From positions 6,076,001-6,140,000 of the forward strand of contig NZ_JAFBCM010000001.1 of NCBI RefSeq assembly GCF_016907715.1: a stretch of DNA of 64,000 nucleotides, given 5' to 3'. This DNA comes from Tenggerimyces flavus (GTDB lineage Bacteria > Actinomycetota > Actinomycetes > Propionibacteriales > Actinopolymorphaceae). Below, in pieces: positions 54,302 to 61,396 of this stretch. The position numbers and the translations under genes were made by a program. The notes below the pieces were generated by a model. That model saw only the letters and a program-made list of their open reading frames with translations. It ran no database searches and was not told the origin of the DNA. The stretch's first letter is position 1. Each line of letters opens with the position of its first letter.

Positions 54302-55687
54302 TCAGCCGTAGAGCGACGACTGGGCCTCGGCGTAGGCCGCCCGGATCTGCTCGCCGGCGGTCTCGTCGATGTCGTCGCGCACCGTGGTCTCGCCGAGGTC
54401 CCAGTGCGGCGGCGCGGCGCCGTCGGCGTACGCCCAGGCGGCCTGCCGGGCCGCGCCCAGCGCGACGTACTGCGCCGGCGGCGGCACCGAGATCGGTACG
54501 CCGAACACGGTCGGCGCCACGGCCTGGACGACCGGCGAACGGGCCGCGCCGCCGATCAGCAGCACCCGGCGGACGGCGACGTCCTGCGCGCGCAACGCGT
54601 CCAGCCCCGCGGCCAGCCCGCTGAGCATGCCCTCGACGGCGGCGCGCGCCACGTTCTCCCGCGTCATCGCGCCGCGGCGCAGGTTGTGCAGCGAGCCGGC
54701 GGCGGTCGGCAGATTGGGCGTGCGTTCGCCGTCGAGGTACGGCAGCAGCACCAGCCCGCCGGCGCCGGGCGACGCGGCGAGCGCGAGCTGGTTGAACTCC
54801 GGCAGCGAGACACCGAGCAGCTCCGCCGTCGCCGAGATCACCCGTGCCGCGTTCAGCGTGCAGACGAGCGGCAGGTAGCGGCCGGTCGCGTCGGCGAAGC
54901 CGGCGACGAAGCCCGACTCGTCCGCGGTCGGCTTGTCGTGCACGGCGAAGACCGTCCCGCTCGTTCCCAACGAGACCACGACGTCGCCCGGCTCGAGGCC
55001 CAGGCCGAGCGCCGCGCCCATGTTGTCGCCGGTGCCAGCCGACACCGCGACGCCGGCGGCGGTCGAGCCGGCCAGCTCGGCCGGCCCCAGCACGCGGGGC
55101 AGCTGGGGTACGCGGCCGAACGCGAGCTCGAGCAGGTCCGTGCGGTACTCCCCGGTCGCCGGCGACCAGTACGACGTGCCGGACGCGTCGCCGCGGTCCG
55201 TCACGGGCTCGGTCTGACCGGTCAACCGCCAGGTCAGGTAGTCGTGCGGAAGCATCACGGTCGCGACCCGCGCCGCGTTCGCCGGCTCGTGCTCGGCCAG
55301 CCAGGCGAGCTTGGTGACGGTCATCGCCGCGAGCGGAACGGACCCGGTCGCCTCGACCCACGCCTTCGGCCCGCCGAGCTCCTGAACGAGCCGGGTGGCG
55401 GCGTCGGCCGAACGGGTGTCGTTCCAGAGCAGCGCGGGACGTACGACGTCGCCGCGCTCGTCCACCGTCACCATGCCGTGCTGCTGGCCGCCAACGCCGA
55501 TCGCGACGACGTCGCCGAGCAGCCCGTCGCCGGCCTGCTGGAGCGCGTCCCACCACGCCTCCGGCGGGCACTCGGTGCCGTCCGGGTGCTGCGCCGTCGC
55601 TTCAGCGAGCACGTCGCCGGAGTCGGCGTCGCAGATCACGACCTTCGTGGACTGGGTGGAGGAGTCGACTCCCGCGACCTTCGGCAT
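54302..55687 (-). CDS. xylB: Xylulokinase
   Basis: 461 residues of the FGGY kinase family. DSSTQSTKVVICDADSG is the phosphate-binding N-terminal motif, GGQQHGMVTV and LLWNDTRSADAA are substrate-binding, and VSLGTSGTVFAV with GGAARSPVVQAV mark the second ATP domain. Reaction: D-xylulose plus ATP to xylulose 5-phosphate, the step after xylose isomerase. It starts 10 nt after the stop of the ubiquitin-like JAB-E1 gene in the same direction and converges with the VOC gene, so it is physically attached to the Ubl operon. Confidence 0.92.
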   Translation of the reverse strand: MPKVAGVDSSTQSTKVVICDADSGDVLAEATAQHPDGTECPPEAWWDALQQAGDGLLGDVVAIGVGGQQHGMVTVDERGDVVRPALLWNDTRSADAATRLVQELGGPKAWVEATGSVPLAAMTVTKLAWLAEHEPANAARVATVMLPHDYLTWRLTGQTEPVTDRGDASGTSYWSPATGEYRTDLLELAFGRVPQLPRVLGPAELAGSTAAGVAVSAGTGDNMGAALGLGLEPGDVVVSLGTSGTVFAVHDKPTADESGFVAGFADATGRYLPLVCTLNAARVISATAELLGVSLPEFNQLALAASPGAGGLVLLPYLDGERTPNLPTAAGSLHNLRRGAMTRENVARAAVEGMLSGLAAGLDALRAQDVAVRRVLLIGGAARSPVVQAVAPTVFGVPISVPPPAQYVALGAARQAAWAYADGAAPPHWDLGETTVRDDIDETAGEQIRAAYAEAQSSLYG

Positions 55688-55697
55688 GCCCTCGATC

Positions 55698-57215
55698 CTA
55701 GGCCGCGACTTCGCCGACTCTCAGCCGTCGCTCGGCGACGCCGAGCAGACGCGCGTGCAACCGGTGCAGCAGATCGTCGGCGGCGCGGCCGAGCCGCACG
55801 TCCCAGGTGCGCTCGGCGGCACGGCGCGCGGCCCTGCGGTGATCCGCGGCATGGTGCGCACCGGCGAGGGCCAGGGCCAGGTCGCCGTCGGCGATCGTCG
55901 CCTCGACCGGGCACGCCGGGCGGGTGTGGGCAGGCACATGCTCGAGGGTGTGGGTACTGAGCACGTAGCGCAGTGGGCCGGGATCGCCCAGCCCGCCAGG
56001 GGCGACCGTGAGGCTGACGTACTGCGCGAGGAGGCCCGCTGCCGCGCTGACGGAGAGCGCGGCGACGTTCTCGCCCTGGTCGCCGCCGTTGCCGGCGATG
56101 TAGCGCTGGTCGTCGAGGTCGCCGGCACGGTCGGCGGTCACGGCAGCCAGGTTCAGCTGTCCGTTGCAGGCCAAGCACGGCCGGCCGGGGCGGACGACGT
56201 GCGAGCGCCAGGTCGCCCCTCGCATGCCGTTGCCGTCGGAGAAGGCGTCGACGCCGATGCCGCCGTCGACGACCGGGATCAGGTGCGCGTACGCCACGCT
56301 GTTGAGGACCGCCCGAGCCCACGGACGGTCGACGCAGCTGAAGATCACGTCGAAGTCGAGCGCCGCCGCCAAGCCCGCTGGCTCACAGACGCTGAGCTCC
56401 GAAGTCTCCAGCCGCAAGCTCGCCGCCGTCGCGTTGAGATCGACGAGCCGTCCGACCACGTCGACCTTCGACCGGCGCAGCCAGGCGTCGACCCGCGTCG
56501 CGCCGACCAGCCGGTCGAGGTTGTGCTCCTCGACGGTGTCGAAGTCCATCAGCCCGATCCGCGTCACCCCCGTCGCCGCCAGCCGCACCGCGACGTCGAG
56601 ACCCACCGACCCGGCGCCGACGACGAGCACGGCACGACGCGTGAGGTCGCGGTGTGTCCGCTCGCCCCACGAGGCAACGGTGCGGGCCTGGCCGCGCCGC
56701 GTCCTGGGCGGCGGAACGAGGTCGTCGTTCCAGCTGACGACGAGCCGGTCGCCGACGACCCGGACGTTCTCCGCGACCGTCGCCCCGACGTCGCGGTCCC
56801 AGTGCCGAGCGGTCCAGCTCTGGTCGCTGGCGAGCGTCAAGCCCACGAGCGGCAGCCCGGTGATCTCCTGGGCGAGGTCGGCGTAGGCGGCCTCGGTCTC
56901 CCGGTCCGCACCGCTCACGCCCTGCCAGCCCTGCTCGCCGGGGTGGCCGTGCGCGAGGATCAGCCCACAGCTGTCGGCCCACGCGAGCGTGGCGGCGCGA
57001 CGTACGTACCTGCCGGTGAGCGCGGCGTTGCCACGGAACCCAAGCTCGCCAGGCTCGGGCGGAACGAGCCGGCGCACCAGAGCGGTTCGCCGGGTCGCGC
57101 CGGTGGAGGGGCGGTAGGTCGCGAGGCGGACATCCTCCCGGCCGTCGAGGAGCAGAGCCCGAGCGAGGGCGTCATGGGTGTCGGCGGTCATCGCGACCGA
57201 GGTCCGCTGGGTCAT
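55698..57215 (-). CDS. JAB peptidase-ThiF (E1-like) fusion of a bacterial Ubl system
   Basis: 505 residues from ATG 57215, overlapping the E2-like stop by 4 nt. The N-terminal JAB/Mov34 domain has the metal motif HGH (89-91), then Ser101 and Asp104, with a loop two residues longer than the standard H-x-H-x7-S-x2-D. The C-terminal part is a ThiF/E1 adenylyltransferase: VLVVGAGSVGLDVA (196-209), LMDFDTVEEHNLDR, SCVDRPWARAVLN and a PCLACNG Cys pair. In the known bacterial ubiquitin-like pathway such fusions adenylate and deconjugate the Ubl protein. The operon partners are the E2-like and Ubl genes directly upstream. Confidence 0.8.
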   Translation of the reverse strand: MTQRTSVAMTADTHDALARALLLDGREDVRLATYRPSTGATRRTALVRRLVPPEPGELGFRGNAALTGRYVRRAATLAWADSCGLILAHGHPGEQGWQGVSGADRETEAAYADLAQEITGLPLVGLTLASDQSWTARHWDRDVGATVAENVRVVGDRLVVSWNDDLVPPPRTRRGQARTVASWGERTHRDLTRRAVLVVGAGSVGLDVAVRLAATGVTRIGLMDFDTVEEHNLDRLVGATRVDAWLRRSKVDVVGRLVDLNATAASLRLETSELSVCEPAGLAAALDFDVIFSCVDRPWARAVLNSVAYAHLIPVVDGGIGVDAFSDGNGMRGATWRSHVVRPGRPCLACNGQLNLAAVTADRAGDLDDQRYIAGNGGDQGENVAALSVSAAAGLLAQYVSLTVAPGGLGDPGPLRYVLSTHTLEHVPAHTRPACPVEATIADGDLALALAGAHHAADHRRAARRAAERTWDVRLGRAADDLLHRLHARLLGVAERRLRVGEVAA

Positions 57216-57535
57216 CGCGCGGTGGCCAGGACGCCGCGTACGTGGGCGACCCACGCCCGCACGGGGTCGGCGTCACCGCCCCAGCCGTCGACCTGTCGCG
57301 AGTGCCGCAGCCAACCCGACCTGGTCGACCGCTGGCTGTTGGTGGCGGGCAGCACGACGACGGCCGGCAGATGGATCCAGTGCGGCGGGGCCATCGGCCA
57401 CCCGGTGAGCTCGGCAACCTCGACCGCGGTCTCCACGAGGTCGACCCGGTAGACGACGAGCCCGTCGCGTACCTCGGGGTGAGCCCGCAGGCGACGCAGC
57501 CCTTCGACGAAGGCGGCTACGTGGTCGCCGGTCAC
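57212..57535 (-). CDS. Prokaryotic E2-like (Prok-E2_E type) protein, no cysteine
   Basis: 107 residues. WPMAPPHWIHLPAVVVLPAT and SGWLRHSRQVDGWGGDADPV (about 46-90) match the small E2/UBC-like proteins of bacterial ubiquitin-like operons. There is no Cys in the protein, so classical thioester chemistry by this gene product is unlikely. Start and stop overlap neighbours by 4 nt (GTGA and ATGA), so all three genes are translationally coupled. Confidence 0.7.
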   Translation of the reverse strand: MTGDHVAAFVEGLRRLRAHPEVRDGLVVYRVDLVETAVEVAELTGWPMAPPHWIHLPAVVVLPATNSQRSTRSGWLRHSRQVDGWGGDADPVRAWVAHVRGVLATAR

Positions 57536-57783
57536 GCGACGTCGGCGTTCCGGCGGATGGTGACGAACCGCGCGCCCGGGTGGACCTGGACGAGATCGTG
57601 GCCGGCGAAGCGGCTGGGCGCAGGAGGCTGACCGCGCAGCTCACCAAGGTCGTACAGCGTCGGGTCGACGCCGGCCAGGCGGAGCAGCTCGGCGACGGGG
57701 TGCCACGGGACGCGGGTCTGGTAGACCCGGCCGTCGATGGTGAACGGGACGCTCGGCCGCAGTTCGGTGGGCTTGTCGGTCAT
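57532..57783 (-). CDS. Multiubiquitin-type ubiquitin-like protein
   Basis: 83 residues. FTIDGRVYQTRVPWHPVAEL, LLRLAGVDPTLYDLGELRGQ and GHDLVQVHPGARFVTIRR form a beta-grasp domain of the multiubiquitin family. Only one domain is present and the C terminus (RRNADVA) lacks a Gly-Gly, so conjugation, if any, may need processing or be absent. The start has GGAGAGGAG 6 nt upstream. It heads a three-gene operon and is divergent from the sigma factor operon. Confidence 0.75.
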   Translation of the reverse strand: MTDKPTELRPSVPFTIDGRVYQTRVPWHPVAELLRLAGVDPTLYDLGELRGQPPAPSRFAGHDLVQVHPGARFVTIRRNADVA

Positions 57784-57873
57784 CGTGGCTCCTCTCCTGC
57801 CGGGGCCGTCTGCTCCCGGTCACCCTGCTGTCGGCCGGCCGGGTGCCGGTGAAAGAGCGCCACGAAATCTGGC

Positions 57874-57907
57874 TGTCGTCTTTCACGGACGGCGTGGGAG
57901 CAGACAA
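57874..57907. repeat. 34-bp perfect direct repeat, copy 1
   Basis: Begins TGTCGTCTTTCACGG and ends GAGCAGACAA; the same 34 nt occur at 58026-58059. The two copies bracket dispersed repeat B. Confidence 0.85.
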
Positions 57908-58024: not shown

Positions 58025-58726
58025 ATGTCGTCTTTCACGGACGGCGTGGGAGCAGACAAGGTGTACGAGATGGCCGAGCCCGCGACCCCCGTTCCCCGCA
58101 GCCACCCGCTGCTGCGGGATCGCGCCCGGTTGGAGAAGATCAAGAACAACATGCACGTCCAGATCCAGCTCGTGCTGCACCGCAGGCGCGTCTCCGACGA
58201 CGTCGCGCTGCTGCTCCCCGGGGGCGGGTCCGTCACGGACGTCCTGCAGGACGCTCTGGTCGCTCTGCTGCGGACGGATCCCGCGAACGTGCGGACCACC
58301 TGGGAGGCGCTCGGCACCGCGATCGCCCGCAACAAGGCGAAGGACGCGCTGTCGAAAGCGACGAGAGGCCGGCGCAAACGGGGTGCCGAGCCGGGTGCGC
58401 CGGACGAGGTGACGCTCGTGGCGCTCGACGAGGACGTCGACGCCGTCGACACCTCCCTCGGCTCCGACCCCGAGACGGCGTTCGTCGCTGCCGAGCAGCT
58501 CCGGGTGTTGCTGCGCCTGGCGCGGGCGACGTTGACGGAACGGGAGAGCCAGATCTTTCACGCCGGCTTCTACCGGACGAAGACCGACAAGGAACTCGGC
58601 GAGCAACTCGGGATCTCGGGCCAGGCCGCCGGACAACAGCGCCGTCGCATACTCAAGAACCTGTACGAGGTCGCTCGACGAGACAAGTCCTTCCCGACGC
58701 TCAACGTCAGCGACGAAGGGAGCTGA
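58025..58726 (+). CDS. ECF-like RNA polymerase sigma factor
   Basis: 233 residues from ATG 58025. LQDALVALLRTDPANVRTTW and AIARNKAKDALSKATRGRRK form region 2, and LTERESQIFHAGFYRTKTDK with ELGEQLGISGQAAGQQRRRI form region 4. The start is uncertain: GTG 58061 has GGGAG 8 nt upstream and ATG 58070 is another option, both giving shorter proteins. The 34-bp repeat covers codons 1-11 of the longer version, and the first copy encodes the same SSFTDGVGADK, so a duplicated gene start is likely. It is coupled to the next gene by a 1-nt gap. Confidence 0.75.
   Translation: MSSFTDGVGADKVYEMAEPATPVPRSHPLLRDRARLEKIKNNMHVQIQLVLHRRRVSDDVALLLPGGGSVTDVLQDALVALLRTDPANVRTTWEALGTAIARNKAKDALSKATRGRRKRGAEPGAPDEVTLVALDEDVDAVDTSLGSDPETAFVAAEQLRVLLRLARATLTERESQIFHAGFYRTKTDKELGEQLGISGQAAGQQRRRILKNLYEVARRDKSFPTLNVSDEGS
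58026..58059. repeat. 34-bp perfect direct repeat, copy 2
   Basis: Identical to 57874-57907 and includes the possible sigma factor start. Confidence 0.85.
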
Positions 58727-58727
58727 G

Positions 58728-59588
58728 ATGATGGGAAACAGCGACGCCGTCGACGACGTCCTCGCGGCGTTCTCAGATCACCTCGAGCACGGAAGTCCGC
58801 GCCCCGCGCTCGACCAGCTCGACCCGCGCGACCGGCAGTTGGCCGAGGACCTGATGCGGCTGATGGAGACAGGTCAGTGGATCGACCCGTCGGCGTCGGC
58901 ACCGTCGCTCGAGGCCTTGCTCGCCGGCACCGAGTTCGCCGACGCACTGCCGCCCGTCGCACTTCCCGTCGAAGCGCCCGTCCTGCACCGGATGCAGGAT
59001 CTGCTCACCGACGTCGATCCTCGCGTCGAGACGCACATCGACGACAGGGGGTTCTTGGCCTTCGGTTGCCTCGACCTGCTCGCGCAGTTCCACCCGCTCG
59101 ACACCGACGACCCATGGCTTCCGGAGAACGCGCTCCGCGCGCTGTTCGACGCGGACAGCAACCTCGACTTGGTGGCGCTGGTCGCCGTACGGACCGACGA
59201 ACTGCTGACCCGAGTGGTCACGCGCTACACCGTCGACCGCACCATCTCCACAGCTGCCCACCACCCGGTTTCGCTGGTGCCGGCGGTCCTGCCCCTTGCC
59301 GTTGCGGGTCGGGCGATCATCGAGGAGAGCGCGCCGGAGTGGGGCGAGTTCGGTCTCGACCACGCAGCGCCCGACCTCGTCGACGTCGGCACTCTCGAGC
59401 TGGAGGTCGCGACCCGCGTACTGGCCGAGGAAGCCAAGCGGCGCTACCAGGGCGACAAGGCCGTCGCCTACCGCTCGCTCGTCGGGAACGAGCGCCGCCT
59501 CGTGGAGCTCCTCACGACCGCCACGCGACCGGGACAGCCCGTCGACCTCGCCGCCGAGGTCGACCACTTCATCAGGCAGGTCGCGTGA
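58728..59588 (+). CDS. Hypothetical protein, 286 aa, sigma/Rad50-linked
   Basis: Soluble and mostly helical. It begins MMGNSDAVDDVLAAFSDHLE; DPRDRQLAEDLMRLMETGQW and LVGNERRLVELLTTATRPGQ stand out. No enzyme motif or known family was recognised. It is translationally coupled to the sigma factor before (1 nt) and to the Rad50-like ATPase after (GTGA overlap), so it probably works with that ATPase. A regulatory or adaptor role is possible, including an anti-sigma role. Confidence 0.6.
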   Translation: MMGNSDAVDDVLAAFSDHLEHGSPRPALDQLDPRDRQLAEDLMRLMETGQWIDPSASAPSLEALLAGTEFADALPPVALPVEAPVLHRMQDLLTDVDPRVETHIDDRGFLAFGCLDLLAQFHPLDTDDPWLPENALRALFDADSNLDLVALVAVRTDELLTRVVTRYTVDRTISTAAHHPVSLVPAVLPLAVAGRAIIEESAPEWGEFGLDHAAPDLVDVGTLELEVATRVLAEEAKRRYQGDKAVAYRSLVGNERRLVELLTTATRPGQPVDLAAEVDHFIRQVA

Positions 59589-61396
59589 TCCGCGGTCTGC
59601 GCCTGCGCGGCTGGCGTTCGTTCGAGGAGCAGTCCCTCGAGCTTGCGCCGGGCCTCACGTTCGTGCTCGCTGACAACGGCGTCGGCAAGACCTCGTTGAT
59701 CGAGGCCGCCGCGTGGGGACTGTACGGTCAGCTCTCCGGCGTCGACGCCGTCGCCGCTCGCCGCATCGGCGCCGACGAGACGAGTGTCGAGCTCGAGGTC
59801 GAACTTCCCGACCTGCGCGTGCTCGACATCCGGCGGGCCGTCGACGCGGGCGGAGCAACCGACGTCGCGGCGAAGCTCGCGGGAAAGACCGTGGGCGCCG
59901 CGAAGCTCGACGCCATGCTTGCCGAGGCGTTCGGGGCATCGGCCGACTTCCTCGCGAGGACCACGACCGCACCAAGCAGCGCCGTCTACGACCAGAAGCA
60001 GAGCGCGTTCGCCCTCCGTGACCACCTGGGCCGGGTGCTCGGAGTCGACGACCTGATCGACGTCGCGGACCGGATGCGGCAGCTACACGACCAGTACGAA
60101 GCCGAGGCGAAGAGTTTCCGCACCGCTTCACGGCGTGCCACGGCAGACCTTGCTGACCTGACGGACCAGCTCGACGACGCCCACGAACGACTCGCGGCGC
60201 TGAACGACCAGCGGGCCACGTTGCGCGACGAGCTCGACACCGCCGAGGACCAGCTGCGACAGGCGCGCCGTGACGTCGAGGCGGGCAAGCGCGCCGCGGC
60301 GGCACACGCCGCTTTCCAGGATGCTCACGCCATCGCGCGGGACGCCCTGCCCACCGACCGGAAAGTACGCCGCGTGCGGACGATCGACAACCTGGTCCGA
60401 ACCCTGGAGGACGCCGAGCGGTCCGCCCTGGCCTCGGTCGACGAGCTTCGCCAGACCCTCGCCGTCGTCGCCGGACGCCGCGAGGCGATCACGAGCGCGG
60501 CGGCTGAGCTCGACGAGGCGTCCGGGACCTGCCCAGTCTGCCGACGTCCGCTGAGCGAGGAGGACGTCGAGCACGCTCGGCAAGGTCACGACTCGGACCT
60601 GGCAGCACTGGAGTCCGGTCGCGTCACCGGGCAGGCGGAGCTCGCGCAGGCGAGCCAACACCTCGTCGCCGTACGTCGGGCCCTGCGGAAGGCGCTCGCG
60701 GTCCCGTCACCCGTCGACTCGCCAGCCGCGGAGAGTACCGACGTGGACGCCGCACGCGCCGCCGTCGAGGCGGTGCGCGCGCGTCACGACGACGTCTCCG
60801 AGCACGTGGCAACCGCCCGGGCCGCGCGGGCAGCGCTGGAGACGCAGATCGCCACCGAGCAGGCGGCCGCGACGGAGCGGGAGGAGTCCCTGCTGGCACA
60901 CCGTCGGGCGGCGGTGACGCGTACCGCCGCCCTCGTTGCCCGACAGACCGCGGACCAGCTGCTGACGGAGCGCATCGACCCGCTGGCCGCCGAGGTCCGC
61001 GCCCGCTGGAAGCGCGTGTTCGGCGACCGCGGCGCACTCCAGCTCCGCGCCGACGGCCGGTTGACCCTGCGGCGCGGGGTCGACGACATCCCGTTCGAGT
61101 ACCTCTCCAGCGGCGAGAAGGTCGTCGCGCTCCTCGCCGTCCGACTGCTCGTGCTCGGGTCGTCGACGCGGTCGTCGTTCCTCTGGCTCGACGAGCCGTT
61201 GGAACATCTCGACCCCCGCAACCGCCGACTCGCCGCGTCGCTGATGTCGGCCGCCGGCGCGCAGGTGAGACAGGTCCTCGTCACCACCTACGAGGAGGAT
61301 CTGGCGAGGCGACTCGCCCGCCGCGGACAGGCCTCCCTGCTGCGGGTGCGCTCGGCCGACGCGGCATGGCCGCCTGGGTCCGACCTGCCGTCTTAG
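59585..61396 (+). CDS. Rad50/SMC-like ATPase with zinc hook
   Basis: 603 residues from GTG 59585. VIRGLRLRGWRSFEEQSLEL leads to Walker A ADNGVGKTSL (about 29-38). A long coiled coil follows (residues about 160-290 and 330-460) with a Rad50-type zinc hook CPVC at 316-319 in the middle. The C-terminal ATPase half has signature EYLSSGEKVVALLAVRLLVL and Walker B SFLWLDEPLEHLD. No nuclease (Mre11) gene is adjacent. The fold binds DNA ends or proteins; here the operon links it to a sigma factor and an unknown protein opposite a ubiquitin-like operon. Confidence 0.85.
   Translation: MIRGLRLRGWRSFEEQSLELAPGLTFVLADNGVGKTSLIEAAAWGLYGQLSGVDAVAARRIGADETSVELEVELPDLRVLDIRRAVDAGGATDVAAKLAGKTVGAAKLDAMLAEAFGASADFLARTTTAPSSAVYDQKQSAFALRDHLGRVLGVDDLIDVADRMRQLHDQYEAEAKSFRTASRRATADLADLTDQLDDAHERLAALNDQRATLRDELDTAEDQLRQARRDVEAGKRAAAAHAAFQDAHAIARDALPTDRKVRRVRTIDNLVRTLEDAERSALASVDELRQTLAVVAGRREAITSAAAELDEASGTCPVCRRPLSEEDVEHARQGHDSDLAALESGRVTGQAELAQASQHLVAVRRALRKALAVPSPVDSPAAESTDVDAARAAVEAVRARHDDVSEHVATARAARAALETQIATEQAAATEREESLLAHRRAAVTRTAALVARQTADQLLTERIDPLAAEVRARWKRVFGDRGALQLRADGRLTLRRGVDDIPFEYLSSGEKVVALLAVRLLVLGSSTRSSFLWLDEPLEHLDPRNRRLAASLMSAAGAQVRQVLVTTYEEDLARRLARRGQASLLRVRSADAAWPPGSDLPS

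Follow-up and report, generated by a model that had tools for sequence, protein, structure and literature searches.

The window, a 64,000-nucleotide stretch of the Tenggerimyces flavus genome (contig NZ_JAFBCM010000001.1, positions 6,076,001 to 6,140,000), holds a minus-strand operon for a ubiquitin-like protein (Ubl), an E2-like protein and a fusion of a JAB protease to an E1-type adenylation domain. Divergent from this Ubl operon lie three plus-strand genes for a sigma factor, a protein that we call G5 and a Rad50-like ATPase, and copies of a promoter-like element stand between the two sets:

55698..57215, minus strand: JAB (JAMM) protease plus ThiF/E1 adenylation domain (BubCD-like), 505 aa, with a ThiF match and a BubCD match
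57212..57535, minus strand: E2-like protein (BubB-like), GTG start, 107 aa, without Cys, Ser79-Arg80 in an H/W-S-R motif
57532..57783, minus strand: Ubl (BubA-like), one beta-grasp domain, 83 aa ORF, C terminus ...ADVA
57829..57854, minus strand: predicted sigma promoter of the Ubl operon, TTTC-N18-GACA, beginning 71 nt before the Ubl start
57881..57906, plus strand: second TTTC-N18-GACA copy, inside a 34-bp exact repeat (57874-57907 and 58026-58059)
58033..58058, plus strand: predicted sigma promoter of the sigma operon, TTTC-N18-GACA, beginning 37 nt before the ATG at 58070
58070..58726, plus strand: sigma-70 family sigma factor (TIGR02937 3.7e-12; Sigma70_r4 2e-6; alignment with relatives)
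58728..59588, plus strand: G5, 286 aa, proposed anti-sigma or coupling protein, conserved between the sigma and ATPase genes
59585..61396, plus strand: Rad50/SMC-like ATPase with a CPVC zinc hook (AAA_23 5e-15; Rad50_zn_hook 1.3e-6), joined to the G5 gene by a GTGA overlap

The sequence-only reading had covered the three minus-strand genes from 57783 to 55698, and its coordinates, strand and overlaps are correct: both junctions are 4-nt overlaps (GTGA and ATGA). It was also right that the Ubl lacks a terminal Gly-Gly, the C terminus reading ...RRNADVA, and that the E2-like protein contains no Cys in its 107 aa. The gene order is the Ubl, E2, JAB-E1 order of Bub and type 6e operons. An E2-like gene lies at most 200 nt upstream of the E1 gene in 82 of 83 related-E1 loci (counting the window and two duplicates; relatives being the best 80 of 117), so the pairing is not due to chance; the remaining locus, L032, also has an E2-like gene but a split E1 frame. 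On the same strand, a gene that by eye resembles xylulokinase (54302-55687) starts 11 nt past the JAB-E1 stop, and the cluster may therefore have inserted before it.

Relatives were collected by scanning a species-genome collection, which yielded 117 related stretches; the best 80 entered the analysis. The related E1 loci include members of Actinomycetota, Chloroflexota, Acidobacteriota, Bacteroidota, Planctomycetota and Pseudomonadota. Close relatives (50-55% identity) occur in 4 of 292 other genomes of the same taxonomic order, and seven other genomes of the same family, among the matches listed, contain distant ThiF-type matches only. Scans of viral contigs and of phages found no E1 relatives. 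Counts omit L083 (a copy of L005) and L048 (a near-copy of L047), L103 is a truncated locus, L032 was left out of the E1 alignment and tree because of its split frame, and L077 was left out of alignment A4.

Profile searches had been proposed with the sequence-only reading as its check, to fail if they placed the small proteins outside the Ubl and E2 families. ThiF was recognised (PF00899, 5e-25), and the JAB-ThiF fusion, which is homologous to BubCD in the PDB, holds. The window Ubl and E2 on their own had no credible match in Pfam, PADLOC or NCBIfam (for the Ubl only DUF348 was listed, E 0.11), though their relatives do match the anticipated families: Multi_ubiq (PF14452) is matched by 24 of 54 Ubl relatives and Prok-E2_E (PF14462) by 10 of 75 E2 relatives. 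No profile put either protein into a different family. The AF2 model of the Ubl (pLDDT 86.9) is closest to multi-ubiquitin proteins in the PDB (Z 9.4-10.8), followed by BubA (Z 8.0), with a best Foldseek E of 2.2e-4, which together with the Multi_ubiq matches bears out the description of the Ubl as multiubiquitin-type. For the E2 model (pLDDT 93.9) the best PDB match, in agreement with its earlier naming as E2-like, is Citrobacter BubB (9eae_C, Z 8.1 over 102 residues, Foldseek E just 0.088), ahead of UFC1 in the next row (Z 5.0) and of secretion chaperones, all below Z 5. This structural match is modest, Z 8.1 being near the level that a common arrangement can give. Searched by sequence, PDB chains gave no match to a profile of the 75 E2s and none to a joined Ubl-E2 protein from L090; the joined protein of L098 matched UBE2S (E 0.0013).

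The JAB-E1 protein itself matches PDB Citrobacter BubCD at 4.2e-21 over residues 8-400 of 505. Its JAMM residues Glu27, His89, His91 and Asp104 are each present in 80 of 80 aligned proteins, and Ser101, kept in the window, in 67 of 80 (relatives being the best 80 of 117); the adenylation residues are likewise invariant in the alignment. The only Cys conserved in at least 78 of 80 rows of the same alignment are C294, C347, C350 and C435. C294 corresponds in alignment to the Uba4 'CTD' Cys, and C347, C350 and C435 look like zinc ligands in the alignment, forming a CxxC...C set that we take to be zinc-binding. The crossover loop is the usual location of an E1 Cys.

Family membership, modelled folds and intact JAMM and adenylation sites, as read from alignments and models, show the trio to be a Bub-type operon, predicted to conjugate and deconjugate the Ubl, in which BubA and BubB are separate proteins and BubCD is a fusion. 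The earlier assignment to the known bacterial Ubl operons thus stands and, from relatives, AlphaFold models and solved structures, can be narrowed to the Bub pathway. The trio is of a known kind, because type 6e of Iyer, Burroughs and Aravind 2006 (PMC1779556) already covers it: in that paper's account of the operon type, one to three Ubl repeats accompany a standalone Cys-less E2-like gene and a JAB-E1 gene, the same set as in the window, with the E2-like gene between the Ubl and JAB-E1 genes. The main text of that paper contains 0 occurrences of 'sigma factor', whereas the window operon adjoins one.

Citrobacter Bub (BubA, BubB and BubCD; PDB 9ea4, 9ea5, 9ea8, 9eae and 9eav) shares with the window the JAB-E1 fusion, the multi-ubiquitin-type Ubl and the WSR E2. 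The window differs from it in having BubA and BubB as separate genes (they are joined in the Enterobacter relative L126), a Ubl of a single domain rather than several, an E1 that retains the CxxC absent from the Citrobacter chain, and the sigma-G5-Rad50 module alongside. No gene for DUF6527, a Bub accessory that is not universal, was found in the window and its relatives, a weak test given two seed proteins only. Bub proteins are reported to act by a non-thioester mechanism, to which we gave no weight.

Bil and CBASS Cap2 follow a common logic of Ubl or target, E2, E1 and JAB. Catalytic Cys residues are found in the Bil and CBASS E2s and in Cap2, whereas the E1 and E2 of the window show none: the window E2 is Cys-free and no E2 alignment column exceeds 19 of 80, and in the E1, C294, C347, C350 and C435 are the only conserved Cys, none of them looking like a thioester site. 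The Bil E1 uses a catalytic Cys, according to the part of PMC11354881 drawn on here.

In the E2-like proteins, Ser79 is the only fully invariant residue, present in 80 of 80 aligned domains, and Arg80, and with it the SR pair, is kept in 77 of 80; Cys is absent altogether from 34 of the 80, and the top Cys column reaches 19 of 80 (relatives in each case being the best 80 of 117). The W-S-R motif is also present in the solved BubB and in Synechocystis. At the level of sequence, then, a thioester-like Cys appears to be conserved in neither E1 nor E2, and it is because no catalytic-looking conserved Cys is seen in either that we propose transfer of the Ubl through Ser79, which would carry the Ubl. 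The E2-like protein could instead be a dead scaffold, its Ser-Arg pair structural or used to bind the Ubl tail, with Ubl-AMP passing to the target directly on the E1 or with no protein target at all. Iyer 2006 (PMC1779556), in its treatment of this operon type, called the Cys-less E2s likely inactive, and a catalytic dyad is not obvious in the E2 sequences. Yet the serine is strictly invariant across phyla while E2 relatives fall to 15% identity with the window protein, which suggests chemistry, and a visual estimate based on motif spacing and secondary structure would put Ser79 near the E2 active site. We regard the scaffold as somewhat improbable, though to be taken seriously, and prefer transfer by way of Ser79.

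The Ubl has no C-terminal glycine, in contrast to the usual E1 substrates, and the usual tail among its relatives is P/G-V-A/S. The tally of tails was filtered on the last residues and could not count GG ends; in the unfiltered list, a Gly-Gly end is found in 0 of 73 separate Ubl ORFs (the L044 and L077 entries are wrong-frame ORFs). In L090, L098 and L100 the Ubl and E2-like domains are part of one protein that keeps the Ubl tail (TPVS, APVS or TTVA) where the two domains meet, a possible cleavage site for the JAB domain.

The start of the sigma gene was set at 58070 from its relatives, as the longest ORF begins at 58025, ahead of the promoter element. G5 has no match in Pfam, PADLOC or NCBIfam. 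Sigma, G5 and ATPase genes also adjoin the Ubl, E2 and E1 genes of three other loci, in tandem in L031 (Acidobacteriota) and divergently in L033 and L034 (both Chloroflexota). A Mycobacterium avium plasmid (L125) likewise carries all six genes in tandem; its annotation names, for some of them, a ThiF family adenylyltransferase, a sigma-70 factor, a hypothetical protein and an AAA ATPase. Searches with G5 only, in which five or six candidates were scored per genome, gave 1 match in 393 other genomes of the class and 4 in 395 other genomes of the phylum (draws that may overlap), and none in 399 other genomes of the phylum of L034 or in 395 of that of L031; two of the four phylum matches, L123 and L124, are weak (E 1.5e-5 and 1.9e-4). 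Among the five loci found with G5, all six genes are present in L121 and L130, L122 has sigma, G5, ATPase and Ubl genes with E2 and E1 not found, and L123 and L124 have sigma and ATPase genes beside G5 with Ubl genes not found. Full six-gene clusters hence number seven in three phyla (window, L031, L033, L034, L121, L125 and L130), and the module is not exclusive to Bub operons, since L123 and L124 carry it where no Ubl genes were found. In the E1 tree, which does not include L125 and L130 because these came from other routes, the window, L031, L033, L034 and L121 fall into one clade with 100/98 support, shared by L035 and L036, which have ImmA-type neighbours.

Upstream of the Ubl and sigma genes we find a shared promoter-like element, TTTC-N18-GACA. 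It occurs in all eight discovery regions (at most 150 nt before the Ubl and sigma starts of the four first loci), where it is the commonest spaced pattern, and in 60 shuffles no pattern did better than 3 of 8; the eight are not all independent, as L033 and L034 are close relatives. In regions not used for discovery, the strict element is present in 6 of 10 (L122 Ubl and sigma, L123 sigma, L125 Ubl, L130 Ubl and sigma) and a version with one mismatch in 2 of 10 (L124 sigma and L125 sigma). L121 has the strict form in neither promoter, both reading TTTC-N18-AACG by eye, and the L125 Ubl site lies 118 nt before the annotated start. Overall, the element precedes both operons in 5 of 7 clusters in strict form and in 6 of 7 with one mismatch allowed. 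Within 650 nt before the E2 gene at the 80 E1 loci (relatives being the best 80 of 117), it is found at 4 of 4 loci that have the module and at 1 of the 76 that lack it; the latter, L089, appears to have it inside its own Ubl gene, and about 0.8 matches overall are expected by chance. A scan of whole loci gave one extra strict match elsewhere in each of L031, L033, L034, L123 and L125, about the chance level. A 26-base stretch of the window's 34-bp repeat occurs only twice in the 8.5-Mb genome at up to three mismatches. The element starts 27-46 nt before the sigma start (34-39 nt in seven of nine cases; the L130 start was placed by comparison with the window), and this short distance suggests leaderless transcripts. 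An earlier candidate, CTTTCAC paired with GGGAGCAGAC as a repeat element, was dropped when comparison across loci gave TTTC-N18-GACA.

Judged from these sequence comparisons, the Bub pathway is most likely under the control of a dedicated sigma factor. Other Bub operons are regulated differently: CapK+CapS, CapH+CapP and CapW adjoin them as regulators responding to DNA damage, with CapW or CapH+CapP present in 219 of 544 published Bub operons, and phage protection by Bub operons had not been demonstrated, in the portion of PMC13373217 used here. The window has a sigma factor and a Rad50-like ATPase instead. Peptidase, kinase, STAS and WYL models match none of the six window genes, and no HTH and ImmA-type peptidase genes, the trait of CapH+CapP, were seen among the six genes or the adjoining ORFs as inspected. 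Such a peptidase is near 39 of the 80 related loci (best 80 of 117; 32 recognised by their motif, plus 7 SIGB loci that were counted in), absence being scored with one pattern that misses diverged forms (L037 has a Peptidase_M78 domain).

One could read the sigma, G5 and ATPase genes as a stress or repair island that adjoins the Ubl operon by accident, as the module without detected Ubl genes in L123 and L124 would allow, and as would the 32 ImmA-type neighbours by motif and the 28 loci with no recognised regulator among the 80 (best 80 of 117). Set against this are the seven clusters in three phyla in both divergent and tandem orders, the element before both operons (five of seven strict, six with one mismatch), and the single E1 clade of the five clusters included in the tree, and we consider an accidental neighbour improbable. 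A sulfur-carrier role like that of ThiS/MoaD, compatible with the beta-grasp fold of the Ubl and a ThiF-type E1, is highly improbable given the missing Gly-Gly, an E1 with no match to any rhodanese model and only common and zinc-type cysteines, the E2 and JAB partners, and multi-ubiquitin proteins as the closest structures.

Our explanation of the cluster is accordingly that of a Bub-type operon transferring its Ubl by a Ser79 route, with positive feedback by the sigma factor and with G5 and the ATPase holding the sigma factor until DNA ends or damage appear; we give this a probability of about 60%. In this scheme, the E1 would adenylate the C-terminal alanine of the Ubl, and the activated Ubl would pass to its target through the invariant Ser79 of the E2-like protein, as an oxyester or by serine-assisted direct transfer, with the JAB domain taking it off the target again. 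The sigma factor would recognise TTTC-N18-GACA upstream of both operons, its own and that of the Ubl, creating positive feedback, and G5 and the Rad50-like ATPase would silence it as long as the ATPase has encountered no DNA ends or damage. Holding or releasing the sigma factor is the probable task of G5 and the ATPase; an anti-sigma role for G5 is a guess. DNA breaks are proposed as the signal because of the Rad50 homology, the Ku genes in L122 and L123, and the DNA-damage regulators of other Bub operons as set out in the cited portion of the literature, and the sigma-controlled Bub operon is probably tied to DNA damage; release of the sigma factor on DNA ends or damage is what we infer by analogy with those regulators. 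The fully specified version, in which the sigma factor answers to a Rad50-like DNA-end sensor and a coupling protein, TTTC-N18-GACA gives feedback, and a Cys-free Ubl pathway with a Ser oxyester performs tagging induced by DNA breaks, is doubtful as a whole.

A literature search, mostly of titles and abstract openings, found no published sigma-factor or Rad50-like control of such an operon. Provisionally, the proposed sigma-G5-Rad50 regulation of a Bub operon is new, and the module with its shared promoter lies outside the coordinates that the sequence-only reading gave. The six-gene cluster would be a new regulatory variant in which the three Ubl-E2-E1 genes are ordinary members of a known family. 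It links a Bub pathway of unclear purpose to a defined transcription switch and a likely signal, DNA breaks, and singles out Ser79 for how tagging can work without the thioester cysteine of ubiquitin enzymes.

Several related loci show other arrangements. Sigma, G5, ATPase and Ku genes (Pfam Ku 3.6e-47) overlap in L122 (2729-7465) as one operon, the Ku gene overlapping the ATPase gene, and a lone Ubl gene, preceded by the promoter element TTTC-N18-GACA, is transcribed away from this operon; in L123, a Ku gene (Pfam Ku 2.8e-49) is beside the sigma gene. A Rad50-like ATPase gene adjoins the Ubl operon in L038, L068 and L073, and in L038 and L068 the ATPase is accompanied by two differing partner proteins, one of which shows, by eye, an anti-sigma-like HxxxCxxC motif. 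The strict element is absent before these partner genes and before the Ku genes of L122 and L123. L035 has an adjoining sigma-like gene (Sigma70_r4_2, 8.5e-4, below Pfam's cut-off). Another sigma gene lies upstream of the Ubl operon in L040, L041, L044, L059, L061, L064 and L095, which are partly close relatives. On inspection of L041 and L061, this gene is followed by that of a short protein and then by an ImmA-type peptidase gene; the L061 protein has a weak HTH match (E 0.074). A different pattern, TAAC-N20-CTAC, stands before the sigma gene in all seven of these loci and before the Ubl region in three.
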